DNA from: Flexithrix dorotheae DSM 6795
GTDB lineage: Bacteria > Bacteroidota > Bacteroidia > Cytophagales > Flammeovirgaceae
Length of the DNA: 64,000 nt
Reading direction: 5' to 3'
NCBI RefSeq assembly: GCF_000379765.1
Contig: NZ_KB903520.1
Coordinates: 1-64,000 of the forward strand
The notes under the pieces were generated by a model that was not told the origin of the DNA, ran no database searches, and saw nothing but the letters and a program-made list of their open reading frames with translations. The position numbers and the translations under genes were made by a program. The stretch's first letter is position 1, and the number at the start of each line of letters is the position of its first letter. Below, one piece after another: positions 56,476-62,546 of this stretch.

Positions 56476-57522
56476 ATGATTTTAGGAAGAAATGTTTTGC
56501 CATTTGTTTATAGGGTAAGCCAGCACATTTTGTTTTGGATGACCTCCTTTTTGGGATTTGCGCACTTATTCAAAATTGGGGACACAGTACAAAAAATTGA
56601 TTATATTTTTGCAGGATTTTTTCATGTGAGTTTAATCTTAGGAGTCTATATCAATCTTTTATTTCTGATTCCGAAAATATTCCAGAAAGGGAAGTATCTG
56701 GCGTATGGTGTTTTTATTATTTTCACCATCATTGGGATGAACCTCCTTCATTATTATGTTTTTAATTCACTGATTGACAGGCTTCTTCCCGGGTATTTTA
56801 TCATATCATTTTTTGACCAAATTGATATCTTAATTTTCATAACTGCCTATTTATTAACTTCCTCACTTTTAAAAATTTCAAGAGGCTGGTTTAAGTTGCA
56901 GGAAATAAAGCATCAGTTGGTAAGGGCCGAAAAAGAAAAGTATCAGATCCAGTTAGATGCACTGAGGACTCAGATTAATCCTCATTTCCTTTTTAACAGT
57001 CTGAATGTACTTCATTCGCTGGCATTGAAAAAATCAGAAAAATCTGCAGATGCTGTAATTGATTTAGCGGATATTTTACGCTACGTTATTTATGATTCAA
57101 ATAGAAGTAAAATAAAAGTTAGTCAGGAAGTAAAATTAATCGAAGACTATATTAGTCTTCAAAAATACCGTATAGAGGAATCTTCCAGGATAGAATTTAC
57201 TGAAAAGGTTGAAAAAGATAATGAATTAGCTCCTATGCTCTTTTTGCCCCTTATTGAAAATAGTTTTAAGCATGGCATTAAAGGAGATTTGAACCAGACT
57301 TATGTGAAAATTAATTTGAAATCGGATGGCACTTGTACCTCATTTGAAATCGAAAATAATAAAGGCAAAGCCGAAGAAATAAATGATACAGAAAACAAGG
57401 GAATAGGTATTCAGAATATTAGAGCGAGATTGAAGCTTATCTATCCAGGAAAGCATAGATTTGAAGTGAATGAGACAGCGGAAGTTTTTAAAGTGCAACT
57501 ATTTATAGACCATGAAAATTAA
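56476..57522 (+). CDS. LytS/YehU-type sensor histidine kinase
   Basis: Inner-membrane kinase of 348 aa with four TM helices (about 12-34, 45-66, 74-97, 108-133) and almost no periplasmic domain. The His_kinase motif is at 166-180, with phospho-accepting His170 in QINPHFLFNSLN; LPLIENSFKHGIKG is the N-box and GIGIQNIRARL the G-box of the ATPase domain. The next gene is its LytTR regulator, overlapping by 11 bp. Because the kinase itself has little outside the membrane, the upstream lipoprotein is a natural input candidate. Confidence 0.92.
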   Translation: MILGRNVLPFVYRVSQHILFWMTSFLGFAHLFKIGDTVQKIDYIFAGFFHVSLILGVYINLLFLIPKIFQKGKYLAYGVFIIFTIIGMNLLHYYVFNSLIDRLLPGYFIISFFDQIDILIFITAYLLTSSLLKISRGWFKLQEIKHQLVRAEKEKYQIQLDALRTQINPHFLFNSLNVLHSLALKKSEKSADAVIDLADILRYVIYDSNRSKIKVSQEVKLIEDYISLQKYRIEESSRIEFTEKVEKDNELAPMLFLPLIENSFKHGIKGDLNQTYVKINLKSDGTCTSFEIENNKGKAEEINDTENKGIGIQNIRARLKLIYPGKHRFEVNETAEVFKVQLFIDHEN

Positions 57523-58207
57523 TTGTATTGTAGTAGATGACGAACCTGTGTCAAGGGATACCCTTCATCAATACATTTCCAATTGCCCTTCGCTTCATTT
57601 GGTGGAGGTTTGCAAAAATGCCATAGAAGCCTCCATGGTACTCAATACAAAGGAGGTGCATTTGATTTTTCTGGATATAAATATGCCAAAACTTTCCGGA
57701 CTGCAATTTTATAAATCTCTTGTGAATCCTCCTACAGTAATTTTCACCACAGCTTATCCGGAATATGCCGTGGAAGGTTTTGAAGTGGAAGCCATAGATT
57801 TCCTTTTAAAACCCTTCTCTTTCGAGCGATTTTTGAAATCTGTAAATAAGGTTTCTAACCTCCTGAAAATGGCACATAACAAGGATCAAAATGAAGCCTT
57901 TATTCTTTGGAAAGCCGATAAAAAAATTCATAAGGTAAAAATTGCGGAGATAGAATACCTAGAAGCGGTTGGAGATTATGTAAAAGTGGTTTATGGCAAT
58001 TCTTCCCTGTTGGTTCATTCTACTTTTCAAAATATTTTGGCTCAATTACCCTCGGAAAAAATTGTGCGAATACATAAATCATTTGCCATTGCCCTGAGCA
58101 AAATTAAGATAATTAGTGCCAACAAGGTAAAATTGAATACCACTTCCATTCCTATTGGCCAAACTTATAGAACAGGTTTTCTTGAGTTTATAAATAACAA
58201 TTCATAA
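57512..58207 (+). CDS. LytTR-type response regulator
   Basis: DNA-binding response regulator of 231 aa. The receiver domain has the acidic pair Asp9/Asp10, phospho-accepting Asp55 in IFLDINMPKLSG and Lys in FLLKPFS. The LytTR DNA-binding domain occupies about 130-230, recognised by IEYLEAVGDYVKVVY and VRIHKSFAIALSKI. It overlaps the kinase gene by 11 bp, as is typical of translational coupling. Its targets are unknown; the adjacent barrel protein at 58.5 kb is a candidate. Confidence 0.93.
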   Translation: MKINCIVVDDEPVSRDTLHQYISNCPSLHLVEVCKNAIEASMVLNTKEVHLIFLDINMPKLSGLQFYKSLVNPPTVIFTTAYPEYAVEGFEVEAIDFLLKPFSFERFLKSVNKVSNLLKMAHNKDQNEAFILWKADKKIHKVKIAEIEYLEAVGDYVKVVYGNSSLLVHSTFQNILAQLPSEKIVRIHKSFAIALSKIKIISANKVKLNTTSIPIGQTYRTGFLEFINNNS

Positions 58208-58483: not shown

Positions 58484-59122
58484 ATGAAAGTTTTATTCTT
58501 ATTAATATCTCTTCCATTTCTTTTCTGTTCGGTTCATGCCCAGGATATCATTACTACAAGAAATAAAGATGAATTAAAAGTAAAAATCATTGAGCAATCT
58601 GAAAGGGAAATAAAATATAAAAAAGAGGGATATGAGGATGGACCGTTAATCACCATTAAAACTCGTAGAGTAAAGGAAGTGAAATATCAGGACGGTACTG
58701 TGGATTTAGTGGGGAATCAAAACCCCCGGTGGAACAAGCCTTTTGGAGTGCATTTGGGTATTGCTTCAAATTTGGATGAAGCTTATATAAATTTAAGTAT
58801 GGATTATTTTATCATCCCTCAGGTATCAATTGAAGGTAATATTTCCATGGAATTTGAGTATCAAAACAGCATTTCTTTTGGAAGTAAATTCCATCTTAAC
58901 TCAAAATATTCCAATAAAAAGTTTACCCCATTTACCGGAGTTTTGATTGGGGAAAATAGTTACTCTAAATTTTTACAGTTGCCTTTAGGAGTGAATTTTA
59001 TAAATACGAAAGGATTAAACGTGGTGGGAAGTATTAGCCATCTGGCCTATATTAATTCATTTGAGAGTTATTATTCAGGATCAGATGTATTGCTGGAGTT
59101 TAAAGCTGGTTGGCGTTTCTAA
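58484..59122 (+). CDS. Hypothetical outer membrane beta-barrel protein
   Basis: A 212-aa exported protein, signal peptide about 1-19 (FCSVHAQ). Residues 20-75 are a charged, probably beta-strand-and-turn module (DIITTRNKDELKVKIIEQ in pieces), seen in some Bacteroidota envelope proteins before a barrel. The rest alternates hydrophobic and polar residues and ends in Phe (FKAGWRF), the usual barrel terminus recognised by the BAM machinery. Function unknown. It follows the LytTR regulator by 276 bp on the same strand. Confidence 0.75.
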   Translation: MKVLFLLISLPFLFCSVHAQDIITTRNKDELKVKIIEQSEREIKYKKEGYEDGPLITIKTRRVKEVKYQDGTVDLVGNQNPRWNKPFGVHLGIASNLDEAYINLSMDYFIIPQVSIEGNISMEFEYQNSISFGSKFHLNSKYSNKKFTPFTGVLIGENSYSKFLQLPLGVNFINTKGLNVVGSISHLAYINSFESYYSGSDVLLEFKAGWRF

Positions 59123-59157
59123 AAAAAATCCCCCTGACAGAGCACTGGCCAGGGGGA
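59121..59157 (-). terminator. Intrinsic terminator of the repeat-protein gene (minus strand)
   Basis: TCCCCCTG (59129-59136) pairs with CAGGGGGA (59150-59157) over a 13-base loop. On the minus strand the stem is followed by a run of eight T (59121-59128). It lies 35 bp after the stop of the gene at 59192. Confidence 0.9.
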
Positions 59158-59191: not shown

Positions 59192-59641
59192 TTATTTTAT
59201 CTCGCTTGTAGATGAAACAGGAGGAACTTCCTTCACTTTAGTTGGTTTTTCCTCATCTTTCCAAGGCTTATAATTTTTAGCTTTTGGTCCCATCAATGGC
59301 TTTCTGTTTGTTTTTGAAAGTACGATTAATTCAGCAGCCTCAGTGTCATCTTTCCACAATTTGTGATTTTTAGCCTGTGGTCCTGTTAAAATTGTCTCGT
59401 TATTTTTTTCAGTAGATACCACTGCTATTTTCTCTACATCTGTATTTTCCCATGGCTTGGCATTTTTTGCCTGAGGCCCCATTAGTCTGTTTTCAGCATT
59501 TTTTGAGGCAACAACTGCAGAATAATTGCTGTTGTCATGTTTCCATGGTTTAGCATTTTTGGCTTTAGGTCCTACCTGAGCCTGAGCCAACGAAAATCCT
59601 AAGAAAGTTAACGCAAATATTAAAAATAATCTTTTCATCAT
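59192..59641 (-). CDS. Secreted protein of four GPxAKNxKPW repeats
   Basis: A 149-aa exported protein, signal peptide 1-22 (LAQAQ). The mature part is four copies of a 31-32-residue unit, beginning at Gly24, Gly55, Gly87 and Gly118. Each starts GPxAKNxKPW (GPKAKNAKPW, GPQAKNAKPW, GPQAKNHKLW, GPKAKNYKPW), then an acidic patch, then a short hydrophobic strand such as SAVVASKN or IAVVSTEKN. The last unit ends in a Pro/Lys/Ser tail. The repeats suggest a small beta-rich or extended protein binding something through Trp and Lys. Family not recognised. It lies just downstream of a NarX/NarL-like system. Confidence 0.8.
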   Translation of the reverse strand: MMKRLFLIFALTFLGFSLAQAQVGPKAKNAKPWKHDNSNYSAVVASKNAENRLMGPQAKNAKPWENTDVEKIAVVSTEKNNETILTGPQAKNHKLWKDDTEAAELIVLSKTNRKPLMGPKAKNYKPWKDEEKPTKVKEVPPVSSTSEIK

Positions 59642-59690
59642 TGTATAAGTTTAAGAAACCTTTTATCTGTTTTAATTAATTCTTATACAA
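59641..59690 (-). promoter_or_regulatory. 5'-leader hairpin reaching the start codon of the repeat gene
   Basis: TTGTATAAG (59641-59649) and CTTATACAA (59682-59690) are perfect 9-base complements. Read on the minus strand, the 3' arm ends at the first base of ATG 59641, so folding would touch the start codon. A second short hairpin, CATCCGTA/TACGGATG (59766-59785), sits just beyond the response-regulator stop. Confidence 0.5.
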
Positions 59691-59793
59691 TTATACGCCT
59701 CAAATGAAGGGAAGTAACTCTAAGAAATTTGGTAATTTTGAGTAGTAGTATTTTGGTAGGATTAACATCCGTATTTTTACGGATGATTTTTAG

Positions 59794-60426
59794 CTAAATC
59801 AGCCTCAGTTTAGCGGCTTTTTTAATTAACTCTGCAGAATTTTTTACATCCAGCTTTTTCATCATATTTACACGATGAGTTTCTACGGTTCGGGTACTGA
59901 TAAATAACTTGTCCGCAATTTCTTTTGTAGTAAGGCCCTGAGAAATAAACTCCAGAATTTCAGTCTCTTTTGGAGATAACTTTTTCGGTTCACTTCCTTC
60001 CAGTGCCATGTTGCTGATCATCTTTGCTGATATTTCCTTATTGAAATACTTGTTCCCGTTTGCAACAGAATTTATAGCGGTTTTTAATTCTTCCTCATCT
60101 GTATTCTTCAATAAGTACCCGAAAGCCCCATCTCTTACACACTTTACAATATAATTTCCATCATTGTGCATGGAAAGGGCAATGGCTTTCACTTTTGGAA
60201 AATCCTTTTTCAGTACTTTTAAGACTTCAAAACCATCCATTTTGGGCATACTCAGGTCCAGTAAAATCACATGGGGTACTGTGCCGGTTTTCAAAAAAGC
60301 AATTAATTCTTCGCCATCATTCAGGCTGGCAATTATATCAAAATGATCATCGGCTGAAAGAAGAGAAGTAATTCCATCCCTGAATAATTTGTGGTCGTCC
60401 GCTATTATTAATTTTATTTTACTCAT
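59794..60426 (-). CDS. NarL/LuxR-type response regulator
   Basis: DNA-binding response regulator of 210 aa. The receiver has Asp10/Asp11, phospho-accepting Asp57 in VILLDLSMPKMDG and the Lys near 106. The C-terminal GerE/LuxR helix-turn-helix is at about 145-207 (LSPKETEILEFISQGLTTKEIADKLFISTRTVETHR, in pieces). It begins one base after the kinase gene, so both are one operon. The next gene downstream on the strand is the GPxAKNxKPW repeat protein, 152 bp away, a candidate target. Confidence 0.93.
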   Translation of the reverse strand: MSKIKLIIADDHKLFRDGITSLLSADDHFDIIASLNDGEELIAFLKTGTVPHVILLDLSMPKMDGFEVLKVLKKDFPKVKAIALSMHNDGNYIVKCVRDGAFGYLLKNTDEEELKTAINSVANGNKYFNKEISAKMISNMALEGSEPKKLSPKETEILEFISQGLTTKEIADKLFISTRTVETHRVNMMKKLDVKNSAELIKKAAKLRLI

Positions 60427-60427
60427 A

Positions 60428-62182
60428 TTACTTGCCTTTTTCTAAATTTTCCGGGTGCTCCAATAGATCAATTTCCACCTCCACTGTAGTTCCATTTTTG
60501 CCAGATTCTATGGACAAATAGCCATTAAATATGTTGACCCTTTCCCTAATGTTTTTCAATCCGGCTCCCGAGGATTTTTTATGGGTTTCAAAGCCTTTTC
60601 CATTATCAGCATAGAACAAACTGACTTGGTCATCAAACTCTGTAAGGGAGATTCGAATCATGGAGGCTTTTGCATGTTTTAAAGTATTGTTAATGAGTTC
60701 CTGGGTGATTCTGAATATTGTAATTCCAATTTCTGTATCAATCCTGGAGTCCTTTTCCTTGGTATTGTCATCATATTGAATATCTATTTCGGAAGAATCC
60801 CGAATAGTACCAACCAAATGGTTAAGCGCTTTTCCTACACCAAAATCAATTAAAGAAAGTGGCATAAGGTTATAGGACATTTGCCTGATTTCACGAATTG
60901 TATCGTCCAGCATTTTCTTGAGTTTCTCCTTTTCCTGATCGGAAATGGTGATGGTTTGTACATAGAGTTTCATACTGGTGAGCAAGGGCCCCAGCCCATC
61001 GTGAAGTTCCATGGCAAGTCTTTTCCTTTCCTTTTCCTGTCCTGTAATTAAGGATTTTTTGGCTTGCTTTCTGTTGAATTCTGCTTTTTGGTTGAAGTCC
61101 TTTAATTTTTGTCTCATGACTAACAAGGATTCGCCCAACATATCATTTTTACCGGAAGGCTGGTAGTCCTCATCCAGTTTCATTTCTCCAATAGCTTTTG
61201 AAAATTGTATAGCCCCGTTGATGGAATTGGTCAGGTCTTTCAGGGCGGAAAACATCTCATTCATTTCAATTGCCCTGGAGTTTTCATTTACCGTAATTTC
61301 ATAATTCCCCTTTGCCATGGTATTGAGCAAATTCCGCATCTTTAAAACCGGCTGAGAAAGCATATTGGTAAGCACAAGCGAGACAAAAAAGGCTATTCCA
61401 ATCACCAGCACGGAAATGAAAATCAGCTTTTTGGTGGTTTCCCACAAAGGTTGAGTCGCTTCCTCTACATCAATTTCGGATAAAATGGCCCATTTAATGT
61501 GCTGAAATTCAAGCGTATGATAAGCGCTGTAAACCATCACTCCCCGGTAATCTTCAAAAATCCCACTACCATTTTTGCCGCTTATAGCTTCTTTAGAGCC
61601 CACCGTTTGAGCATGAATACTAAACGGAGGTTTTTTGGGCATAAACCGGGAGATAGATCGCAAGTTGAAATCTTCTCCTACCAAATAAGTTTCTCCGCTT
61701 TCTCCCATTCCTGTTCTTTCCACTAAAATATGTTGGATATAAGGAGTTTGGTACAACTGGATAATGTATTGATTATCAGGGTTGATTTTTACAAAAGCCA
61801 GTTTTATTTTCCCATTTTCTGAGAACTCGGTTTTATCGTAAATGCCTTCTTCCAGGTGCTTGTTTTGCCTAAAGTAAATCAGTGTATCCGGTCGGTCTGT
61901 TTTAAAGGAATTGCTCAGGACCATTGGGAAATCTTCAATAATTTCGGCAGTGGTATTCGTTTGGGAAGCAATTTTAAAATCGATCCATTTTTGTTCCAGG
62001 TATTCTTCAATTTGGATTCTCTTGAGCCTTTTTATAGAAGTTAGGTGGAGTAAAACTCTTTGGTCGAGTGTATTTTTAAATTCTCGGTAATCGAAAATAG
62101 TAAGGAAAGCTACCGTAAGGGAAATGAGAGATATAATGTAGAAATTTATCCAAAACTTGATGCTTAGCGCATTTATTTTCAT
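60428..62182 (-). CDS. Sensor histidine kinase (NarX-like, HisKA_3)
   Basis: Inner-membrane kinase of 584 aa from ATG 62182 (the frame to 62218 adds 12 unlikely residues). TM1 at about 10-31 and TM2 at about 260-283 enclose a roughly 230-residue extracytoplasmic sensor domain, probably Cache-like (ERTGMGESGETYLVGED is typical of that fold). A HAMP domain follows, then HisKA_3 with the phospho-His in RLAMELHDGLGPLLTSMK, and a HATPase_c with GAGLKNIRERV. It precedes its regulator by one base. The Cache fold suggests it senses a small extracellular molecule. Confidence 0.93.
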   Translation of the reverse strand: MKINALSIKFWINFYIISLISLTVAFLTIFDYREFKNTLDQRVLLHLTSIKRLKRIQIEEYLEQKWIDFKIASQTNTTAEIIEDFPMVLSNSFKTDRPDTLIYFRQNKHLEEGIYDKTEFSENGKIKLAFVKINPDNQYIIQLYQTPYIQHILVERTGMGESGETYLVGEDFNLRSISRFMPKKPPFSIHAQTVGSKEAISGKNGSGIFEDYRGVMVYSAYHTLEFQHIKWAILSEIDVEEATQPLWETTKKLIFISVLVIGIAFFVSLVLTNMLSQPVLKMRNLLNTMAKGNYEITVNENSRAIEMNEMFSALKDLTNSINGAIQFSKAIGEMKLDEDYQPSGKNDMLGESLLVMRQKLKDFNQKAEFNRKQAKKSLITGQEKERKRLAMELHDGLGPLLTSMKLYVQTITISDQEKEKLKKMLDDTIREIRQMSYNLMPLSLIDFGVGKALNHLVGTIRDSSEIDIQYDDNTKEKDSRIDTEIGITIFRITQELINNTLKHAKASMIRISLTEFDDQVSLFYADNGKGFETHKKSSGAGLKNIRERVNIFNGYLSIESGKNGTTVEVEIDLLEHPENLEKGK

Positions 62183-62546
62183 GTTCCGCGTTTTTCTCGA
62201 TTGTAGGAAAATTGGCAAGTGCTTTTCCGTTTAGTTCTCCAGCATAAAATGGTGGTTTTGGTATTGATAAATTGGTGAAAAGGTGTAAATATTCAATAAT
62301 ACTAAAAGACAATGAAATTATCAAAGAAATAGGGATAGTGTAAAACTGGAATAAGGCAGGATTTGCTTATTTTTTCAAAAATAAGTATAAAAATACCCCT
62401 TCTTTGTAGAGTTTTCAGTCAAAATTCTATGATTGCCTTCTAATTGCACCTGCAATCTGCTATTGTCAATTTTCTGCCAGGTGTTATTTTAAAACTGAAA
62501 TGGCTGTTTAAATAAGGTATAACATAAATTCATTTCCTTATCAACT

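Follow-up and report, generated by a model that had tools for sequence, protein, structure and literature searches.

A small exported GPxAKN repeat protein as the probable dedicated output of a two-component system in Flexithrix dorotheae and other Bacteroidota

Introduction

What is the product of a small open reading frame (ORF) that directly follows a two-component operon in Flexithrix dorotheae DSM 6795, and is it controlled by this operon? The ORF is located in a stretch of 64,000 nucleotides (contig NZ_KB903520.1, positions 1 to 64,000), here called the window. A preliminary description of the sequence had proposed a small secreted protein of four repeats, with Trp/Lys faces binding a polymer or surface, that is possibly controlled by the neighbouring NarX/NarL-type system. 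Comparison of the locus with its relatives makes it probable that the exported repeat protein is the dedicated output of the neighbouring two-component system. The system is of a familiar kind, while its dedicated exported repeat-protein output is unfamiliar. The unexplained ORF becomes a testable unit of kinase, regulator, operator candidate and one small exported protein (Table 1).

Table 1. Predicted features of the locus, in coordinates of the window
Feature	Position	Strand	Evidence or sequence
Small exported repeat protein, 149 aa	59192..59641	-	ORF call, family profile, dN/dS of relatives
Signal peptide, residues 1-21, probable cut between A21 and Q22	59579..59641	-	judged by eye
Repeat unit 1, residues 24-54	59480..59572	-	GPKAKNAKPW
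Repeat unit 2, residues 55-86	59384..59479	-	GPQAKNAKPW
Repeat unit 3, residues 87-117	59291..59383	-	GPQAKNHKLW
Repeat unit 4, residues 118-149, C-terminal tail included	59195..59290	-	GPKAKNYKPW
Intrinsic terminator of the repeat-protein gene	59129..59157	-	hairpin after the stop, then U's; -20.5 kcal/mol, z -3.3
Predicted -7 box, 23 bp after the conserved element	59688..59695	-	TATAATTG; promoter scoring
Conserved promoter element, about -33 region	59719..59736	-	ATTACCAAATTTCTTAGA, consensus TTTACCATTTTTCTTAGA; promoter comparison
Second, weak operator-like site, centred 14 bp upstream of the element	59743..59758	-	TACCAAAATACTACTA; promoter scoring
Main operator candidate, perfect palindrome	59766..59785	.	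CATCCGTATTTTTACGGATG; scans, conserved in relatives
NarL/FixJ-type response regulator	59794..60426	-	Pfam
Sensor kinase: Cache-like sensor, HAMP, HisKA_3, HATPase_c	60428..62218	-	Pfam, model, fold search

The repeat protein and its gene

The ORF and its coordinates had been given correctly in the preliminary description, which had left the minus strand unstated. The four GP-repeat units behind a signal peptide were likewise found as described: they start at residues 24, 55, 87 and 118 (spacings of 31, 32 and 31 residues), and all four copies follow the pattern GPxAKNxK[PL]W. M2 and Q22 are conserved in at least 90% of 35 aligned members of the family described below. The repetition is visible at the protein level; a DNA-level tandem repeat at the gene was rejected, as Tandem Repeats Finder reported nothing but a TTTTAT run of 15 bp, and so was an RNA family at the locus, for which the search gave no match. 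The genome (9.5 Mb, 101 contigs) encodes a single copy of the gene, which indeed carries its own strong terminator. Convergent with it lies a 212-aa ORF without Pfam match (58484-59122), and upstream of that ORF a second two-component pair is encoded on the plus strand (56476-58207), consisting of a His_kinase PF06580 protein and a LytTR regulator.

The structure prediction of the four-repeat protein that had been proposed as a check gave no usable fold. AlphaFold2 reached a mean pLDDT of 64.5 and a pTM of 0.26, values that may stem from the shallow alignment (35 rows), and only the helix of the signal peptide and short turns at units 2 and 4 were predicted with confidence, which is why the mature chain is probably disordered according to the model. 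The short hydrophobic strand that had been ascribed to each unit finds no support as structure, as the AlphaFold2 model of the window protein contains no beta strand; what recurs is a V/I/T-rich stretch about 16-22 residues past the G of each unit.

The mature proteins of the 35 members, for which the cut site was set by a rule of thumb, have a median pI of 9.9 (range 5.9-11.0) and a GRAVY of -1.29. Cysteine is absent from the mature part in 35/35 members, so defined, which does not fit a lipoprotein, and no C-terminal sorting domain of type IX secretion was found in the 35 members with Pfam and NCBIfam at E <= 0.1. These sequence properties support a small, basic, hydrophilic exported protein as gene product.

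A family of exported repeat proteins in Bacteroidota

Relatives of the protein were sought with two peptide patterns in one genome each of 84,980 species, which resulted in 34 confirmed loci, two of which belong to one MAG. A profile built from 35 proteins matches 33 of 390 genomes of the window's order, the own genome included, and 7 of 395 genomes drawn from the phylum, four of which are already in the order set. Homologues of the kind that the proposed profile search was aimed at thus exist, and they occur in at least five Bacteroidota families, namely Cyclobacteriaceae, Reichenbachiellaceae, Fulvivirgaceae, Flavobacteriaceae and Lewinellaceae; named hosts include Cyclobacterium, Algoriphagus, Reichenbachiella, Fulvivirga, Flavicella, Wenyingzhuangia and Flavilitoribacter. 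Of 12 pairs of relatives, the ten with a computable dS show a dN/dS of 0.06-0.24, with dS often near or above 1 and with one of the ten being a pair of the NYKH family treated below. Purifying selection acts in the tested pairs. The repeat gene is not a chance ORF, because relatives exist in at least five families and selection is purifying in these pairs.

The consensus unit across members is L-[KQT]-G-P-x-A-K-N-Y-K-P-W. As the pattern used for counting units fixes K/R at position +4 and N/K/A at +5, only the other positions serve as evidence; among these, K at +7 is found in 97/106 units and W at +9 in 89/106. Three units are the rule: they are found in 34 of the 35 aligned members, the window protein with four being the exception. 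A looser pattern applied to 64 loci (58 distinct proteins, window excluded) counted three units in 62 and four in two, and both counts of four come from one protein fetched twice (L049 and L114), in which the fourth 'unit' is an unrelated NSKAS stretch. Therefore, by the loose count all 58 distinct relatives have three units.

No known repeat family covering the unit was found in the collections searched. The preliminary description had not recognised the repeat, and searches of Pfam, NCBIfam and PDB sequences gave scattered weak matches and no credible match to the unit: PDB sequence searches yielded nothing better than E 0.77, and no Pfam or NCBIfam model matched the 35 members above its cut-off. 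Literature searches on motif strings and topics gave no paper recognised as relevant by its title or the start of its abstract. The GPxAKN proteins are a previously unnamed family of exported repeat proteins in Bacteroidota, often encoded beside their own kinase and regulator.

The binding of a polymer or surface, with the cationic repeat and its Trp residues forming a coat on LPS, exopolysaccharide or DNA, is favoured by the strongly basic and hydrophilic character of the protein and by the repetition of aromatic and Lys residues. However, the motif is tighter at positions +7 and +9 than charge requires and fits a specific partner better, and no polymer-binding family scored above its cut-off, so that this reading is considered unlikely. 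Since AlphaFold2 predicted no fold with faces, binding through short linear motifs would be a more economical picture than the Trp/Lys faces that had been assumed.

The neighbouring two-component system

The repeat gene starts 152 bp after the end of the regulator gene (59794) on the same strand, as had been stated. The regulator contains Response_reg (PF00072, 6.1e-26) and GerE (PF00196, 1.3e-20) domains and belongs to the NarL/FixJ type. The kinase, with a likely start at 62182, contains HisKA_3 (PF07730, 2.3e-08) and HATPase_c (PF02518, 1.2e-09) and is of the NarX/UhpB type; HAMP is sub-threshold in the window copy. NarX proper has an all-helical periplasmic nitrate-sensing domain. The model of the sensor half of the window kinase (pLDDT 86.5) instead shows a mixed strand/helix extracytoplasmic domain with many strands, its leading PDB matches are Cache-type domains of chemoreceptors (amino-acid) and kinases, with modest TM-scores, and dCache_1 gives a weak match in 7 of 25 kinases. 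According to the model, the sensor looks Cache-like rather than NarX-like, and the assignment as NarX/NarL-type holds for the HisKA_3/HATPase_c and Response_reg/GerE parts.

Conserved synteny with the kinase had been named as a check on the proposed control. In 26 of the 58 distinct loci (context A), the same strand encodes a regulator of the window type upstream of the gene, and before this regulator a window-type kinase or a fragment of one. The gap between regulator and repeat gene is 93-216 bp in 25 of these loci and 1,483 bp in one (L051), where a gene for a Na+/H+ exchanger sits in between. In the other 32 distinct loci no such regulator is encoded within the fetched stretch, and since these loci keep the gene, the function of the protein is, by gene context, independent of the regulator.

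Seen from the kinase, the association is close. Matches at E <= 1e-100 occur in 11 of the 390 genomes of the order, and nine of these encode the repeat gene. The exceptions are a genome of the window's genus (G001), in which the contig ends at the kinase, and G002, which keeps the kinase, the regulator and a one-mismatch version of the palindrome described below, and has a different 98-aa ORF downstream. This ORF (L138:6413-6709) matches no Pfam family and lacks an evident signal peptide; the arrangement possibly represents a swap of the regulator's target gene. Seen from the repeat gene, the kinase search found nothing at E <= 1e-35 in 24 of the 33 gene-bearing genomes of the order. As one of these, G011, contains a fragment of the kinase where a contig ends, 23 are left without the kinase.

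A palindrome as candidate operator

The perfect palindrome CATCCGTATTTTTACGGATG lies between the regulator and the repeat gene. In the 200 bp that precede the gene, 26/26 loci with the regulator contain its core TCCGTANNNNTACGGA with 0-3 mismatches, 14 of them exact, and the best sites in the 32/32 loci without it have 3-6 mismatches. Only one of the latter, L049, has a site with three, no worse than three loci with the regulator. Random 200-bp windows from the same loci gave an equal match in 0-7% of draws for context A, mostly in 0, the least unusual sites being those of L021 (7%) and L030 (2%). Together, the synteny in 26/58 and the palindrome in 26/26 loci strongly support, at the level of sequence, the earlier suggestion that the gene may be controlled by that system.

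The site is nearly unique. In an exact-pattern search of 20 distinct genomes (21 handles, one genome being present twice), ten have an exact site, one each, and in nine of these it lies in the repeat-gene promoter. In the tenth, G395 (Ochrovirga), the exact site lies between unrelated genes (L127:8021) and the site in the promoter deviates at two positions. With the reversed pattern as control, three genomes gave one match each. The window's own genome contains one exact site, and a common genomic repeat as source of the palindrome was rejected on this count. With up to two mismatches it contains 30 sites vs. 24 for the control pattern, no clear excess, and weaker extra targets of the regulator elsewhere in this genome are possible. 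With a nearly unique operator candidate of 16-20 bp, binding of the regulator to the palindrome is directly testable.

The promoters share a fixed geometry: in 24 of 28, the best TTTACCATTTTTCTTAGA match follows the palindrome centre at a distance of 14-15 or 37-40 bp. L109 and L111-L113 do not fit the spacing. As the element was picked by eye in these very promoters, a shuffling test of the element is circular. Promoters with the far element (n = 15) contain a further palindrome-like site of lower quality, centred 14 bp ahead of the element, with a mean of 6.07 of 12 matches vs. 1.3-5.0 at the other offsets tested. The Bacteroidota-type -7 box has the consensus TAnnTTTG. With the element confined to 12-17 or 36-41 bp from the palindrome centre, the -7 box score peaks at a single spacing of 23 bp in 25 promoters (mean 4.40/6 vs. 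2.96 for the next best); L111-L113, in which the element scored under 10/18, were left out of these, and L031 and L101, which are one locus, were both counted. A palindrome that keeps a constant spacing to the -33 region, upstream of it, agrees with an activator site, and it is from this position that we infer the direction of control. The analysis predicts an operator and a promoter for a NarL-type regulator in Bacteroidota; a full-text literature search for a NarL-type site in this phylum gave results that, by their titles, concern other subjects.

The palindrome could also be a mere transcription terminator, with the small gene expressed independently: it can form an 8-bp stem, and the terminator scan lists a terminator-like hairpin on the plus strand. 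On the minus strand, i.e., that of the regulator, no U-run follows the palindrome and the scan lists no terminator. Moreover, the sequence of the palindrome is conserved and not only its pairing, and its spacing to the promoter is fixed. In L051 the exact palindrome is found 1.4 kb from the regulator and stays before the repeat gene at -122, which argues that it is not the terminator of the regulator gene. Independent expression behind a terminator is highly improbable on these grounds.

Loci without the kinase and their nitrogen-related neighbours

The 23 genomes of the order that encode the repeat gene without the kinase all belong to one family (f19; context B). Sixteen of them were fetched, and a BBP2-like porin adjoins the gene in 16/16 and the ammonium transporter Amt in 15/16; the calls were made by BLAST to the proteins of L029 (PF07642, PF00909), with Pfam checks on L029, L023 and L024. 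Genes for GroES and DnaK lie convergent to and downstream of the repeat gene in this context. This neighbourhood raises the possibility that the protein is a nitrogen-uptake accessory for ammonium transport that docks, e.g., on Amt or on the BBP2 porin. In the same direction point L023, with glutamine synthetase, BBP2 and Amt alongside the gene, L021, with glutamine synthetase alongside, and L024, with Amt beside the kinase. As 18 genomes contain only 1-4 copies of Amt and 1-3 of Gln-synt_C each, Amt or GlnA should rarely be neighbours by chance. However, Amt and BBP2 stand together in a single conserved neighbourhood of one family, which has to be counted as one case. Amt or GlnA is found within the fetched flank in only 2 of the 26 distinct loci with the regulator, 10 of the 32 distinct loci without it have neither Amt nor porin in the stretch fetched, and the Amt gene of the window (PF00909, 24480-25859, minus strand) lies 33 kb away from the repeat gene. 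A role in nitrogen uptake is possible, though rather doubtful. Guessed from the Amt/BBP2/GlnA neighbours, an envelope adaptation tied to nitrogen supply may be the wider context, which is a weak suggestion.

Proposed mechanism

For the dedicated output of the two-component system, the following course of events is proposed. The membrane kinase with its extracytoplasmic Cache-like sensor would phosphorylate the NarL-type regulator, which would bind the palindrome ATCCGTA-N4-TACGGAT and activate one strong target, the adjacent gene. Its product, a small, basic and largely disordered protein, would be exported across the inner membrane by the Sec system. The motif L-x-G-P-x-A-K-N-Y-K-P-W, normally present in three copies about 30 residues apart and here in four, would serve as a short linear motif of multivalent action, by which the protein docks on a periplasmic or cell-surface partner. 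The parts of this scheme supported by sequence comparison are the family, the export signal, the synteny, the operator candidate, the promoter geometry, the near-uniqueness of the operator and the three-repeat rule; the family and the export signal likewise support the 'small secreted repeat protein' of the preliminary description.

The UhpB/UhpA-uhpT system is a NarL/FixJ-type two-component system with a single main target. The system described here resembles it in the HisKA_3 kinase, the Response_reg-GerE regulator and the one strong adjacent site, and differs from it in that the target is a small exported repeat protein and not a transporter and in that the sensor is Cache-like. CpxP and ZraP are periplasmic accessory proteins of two-component systems with an LTxxQ/Spy-like domain, and CpxP tunes the kinase CpxA. 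The window protein is like these a small exported protein beside a two-component system that probably controls it. In contrast to CpxP and ZraP, it has no confident helical fold and its family is present without the kinase in 23 of 33 genomes; no LTxxQ-type Pfam match was found in the 35 members at E <= 0.1.

By analogy, the exported protein could bind the sensor domain of the kinase and tune the kinase as a feedback accessory, or it could itself be the peptide signal that is sensed, in the manner of peptide pheromone precursors, which are cleaved to short peptides that activate the kinase. The genes are adjacent with one strong site, and kinases beyond a 100/100 branch of the kinase tree carry a protein with NYK motifs in the same place (12/23 loci, see below), as if protein and sensor diverge together. 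However, 23 of the 33 gene-bearing genomes have no kinase, and a peptide signal with its own gene as the sole strong target would lead to no output. In a distance-correlation test over 24 loci, which is weak for so short a protein and from which L046 (long branch), L028, L050 and L101 were left out, the distances of the protein do not follow those of the sensor domain after correction for the kinase domain and for the regulator (partial r -0.20, permutation p 0.92). They track the catalytic half of the kinase (partial r 0.56, 0/2000 permutations), and this correlation with the catalytic half and not with the sensor suggests shared descent more than sensor contact. A feedback role is therefore judged improbable.

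The NYKH family and diverged kinases

The distant kinases sit across the 100/100 branch from the window-type kinases in a tree that leaves out L028, L050 and L101 (fragments or duplicate). Twenty-three distant kinase matches with E values from 2e-37 to 3e-76 were fetched, although BLAST finds no kinase of this kind in one of them, L161, and in 12 of the 23 (L139, L141, L144-L146, L148, L149, L151-L153, L156, L157) a different small exported protein with NYK motifs is encoded within 700 bp after the regulator. These proteins, here termed the NYKH family as they have no public name, consist of a signal peptide followed by NYKHPNK...NYK...NYK; the ORFs have roughly 100-160 residues and their export was judged by eye. 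The analysis brings to light two families of exported repeat proteins, GPxAKN and NYKH, of which the latter is the more widespread: its profile matches 73 of the 390 genomes of the order at E <= 1e-5, and no Pfam model, the only collection searched, matches it above cut-off. In 28 of 33 ORFs (30 loci shown) exactly three NYK motifs are present about 30 residues apart, and many of these loci have no such regulator within the 1.5 kb examined. No clear common palindrome was seen by eye in the 12 NYKH-type promoters.

Both families share a common plan, i.e., exported proteins with three motifs about 30 residues apart, and differ in the motif itself. A match between the NYKH and GPxAKN profiles rests mostly on the signal peptide and gives no ground for homology. 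A bolder reading would place both in a class of Bacteroidota two-component systems with a disordered, exported peptide ligand of three motifs (GPxAKNYKPW or NYKHPN type) as dedicated output. The strict number of three copies, spaced by about 30 residues, would let one linear protein dock on all three protomers of a trimeric channel of the envelope, such as Amt or the BBP2 porin, and set its activity; the four-repeat protein of the window would be an expanded form. We regard this as very unlikely; if the three repeats are a trivalent ligand, this would be an unusual way to control envelope proteins.

The link of NYKH-type proteins to kinases may, from gene order, extend beyond the NarL-type pair. 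In L178, L182 and L191, NYKH-type genes adjoin a different kinase-like ORF, which in L178 has the architecture HAMP-HisKA-HATPase_c. In L167 (G195), the NYKH gene is present in three near-identical tandem copies.
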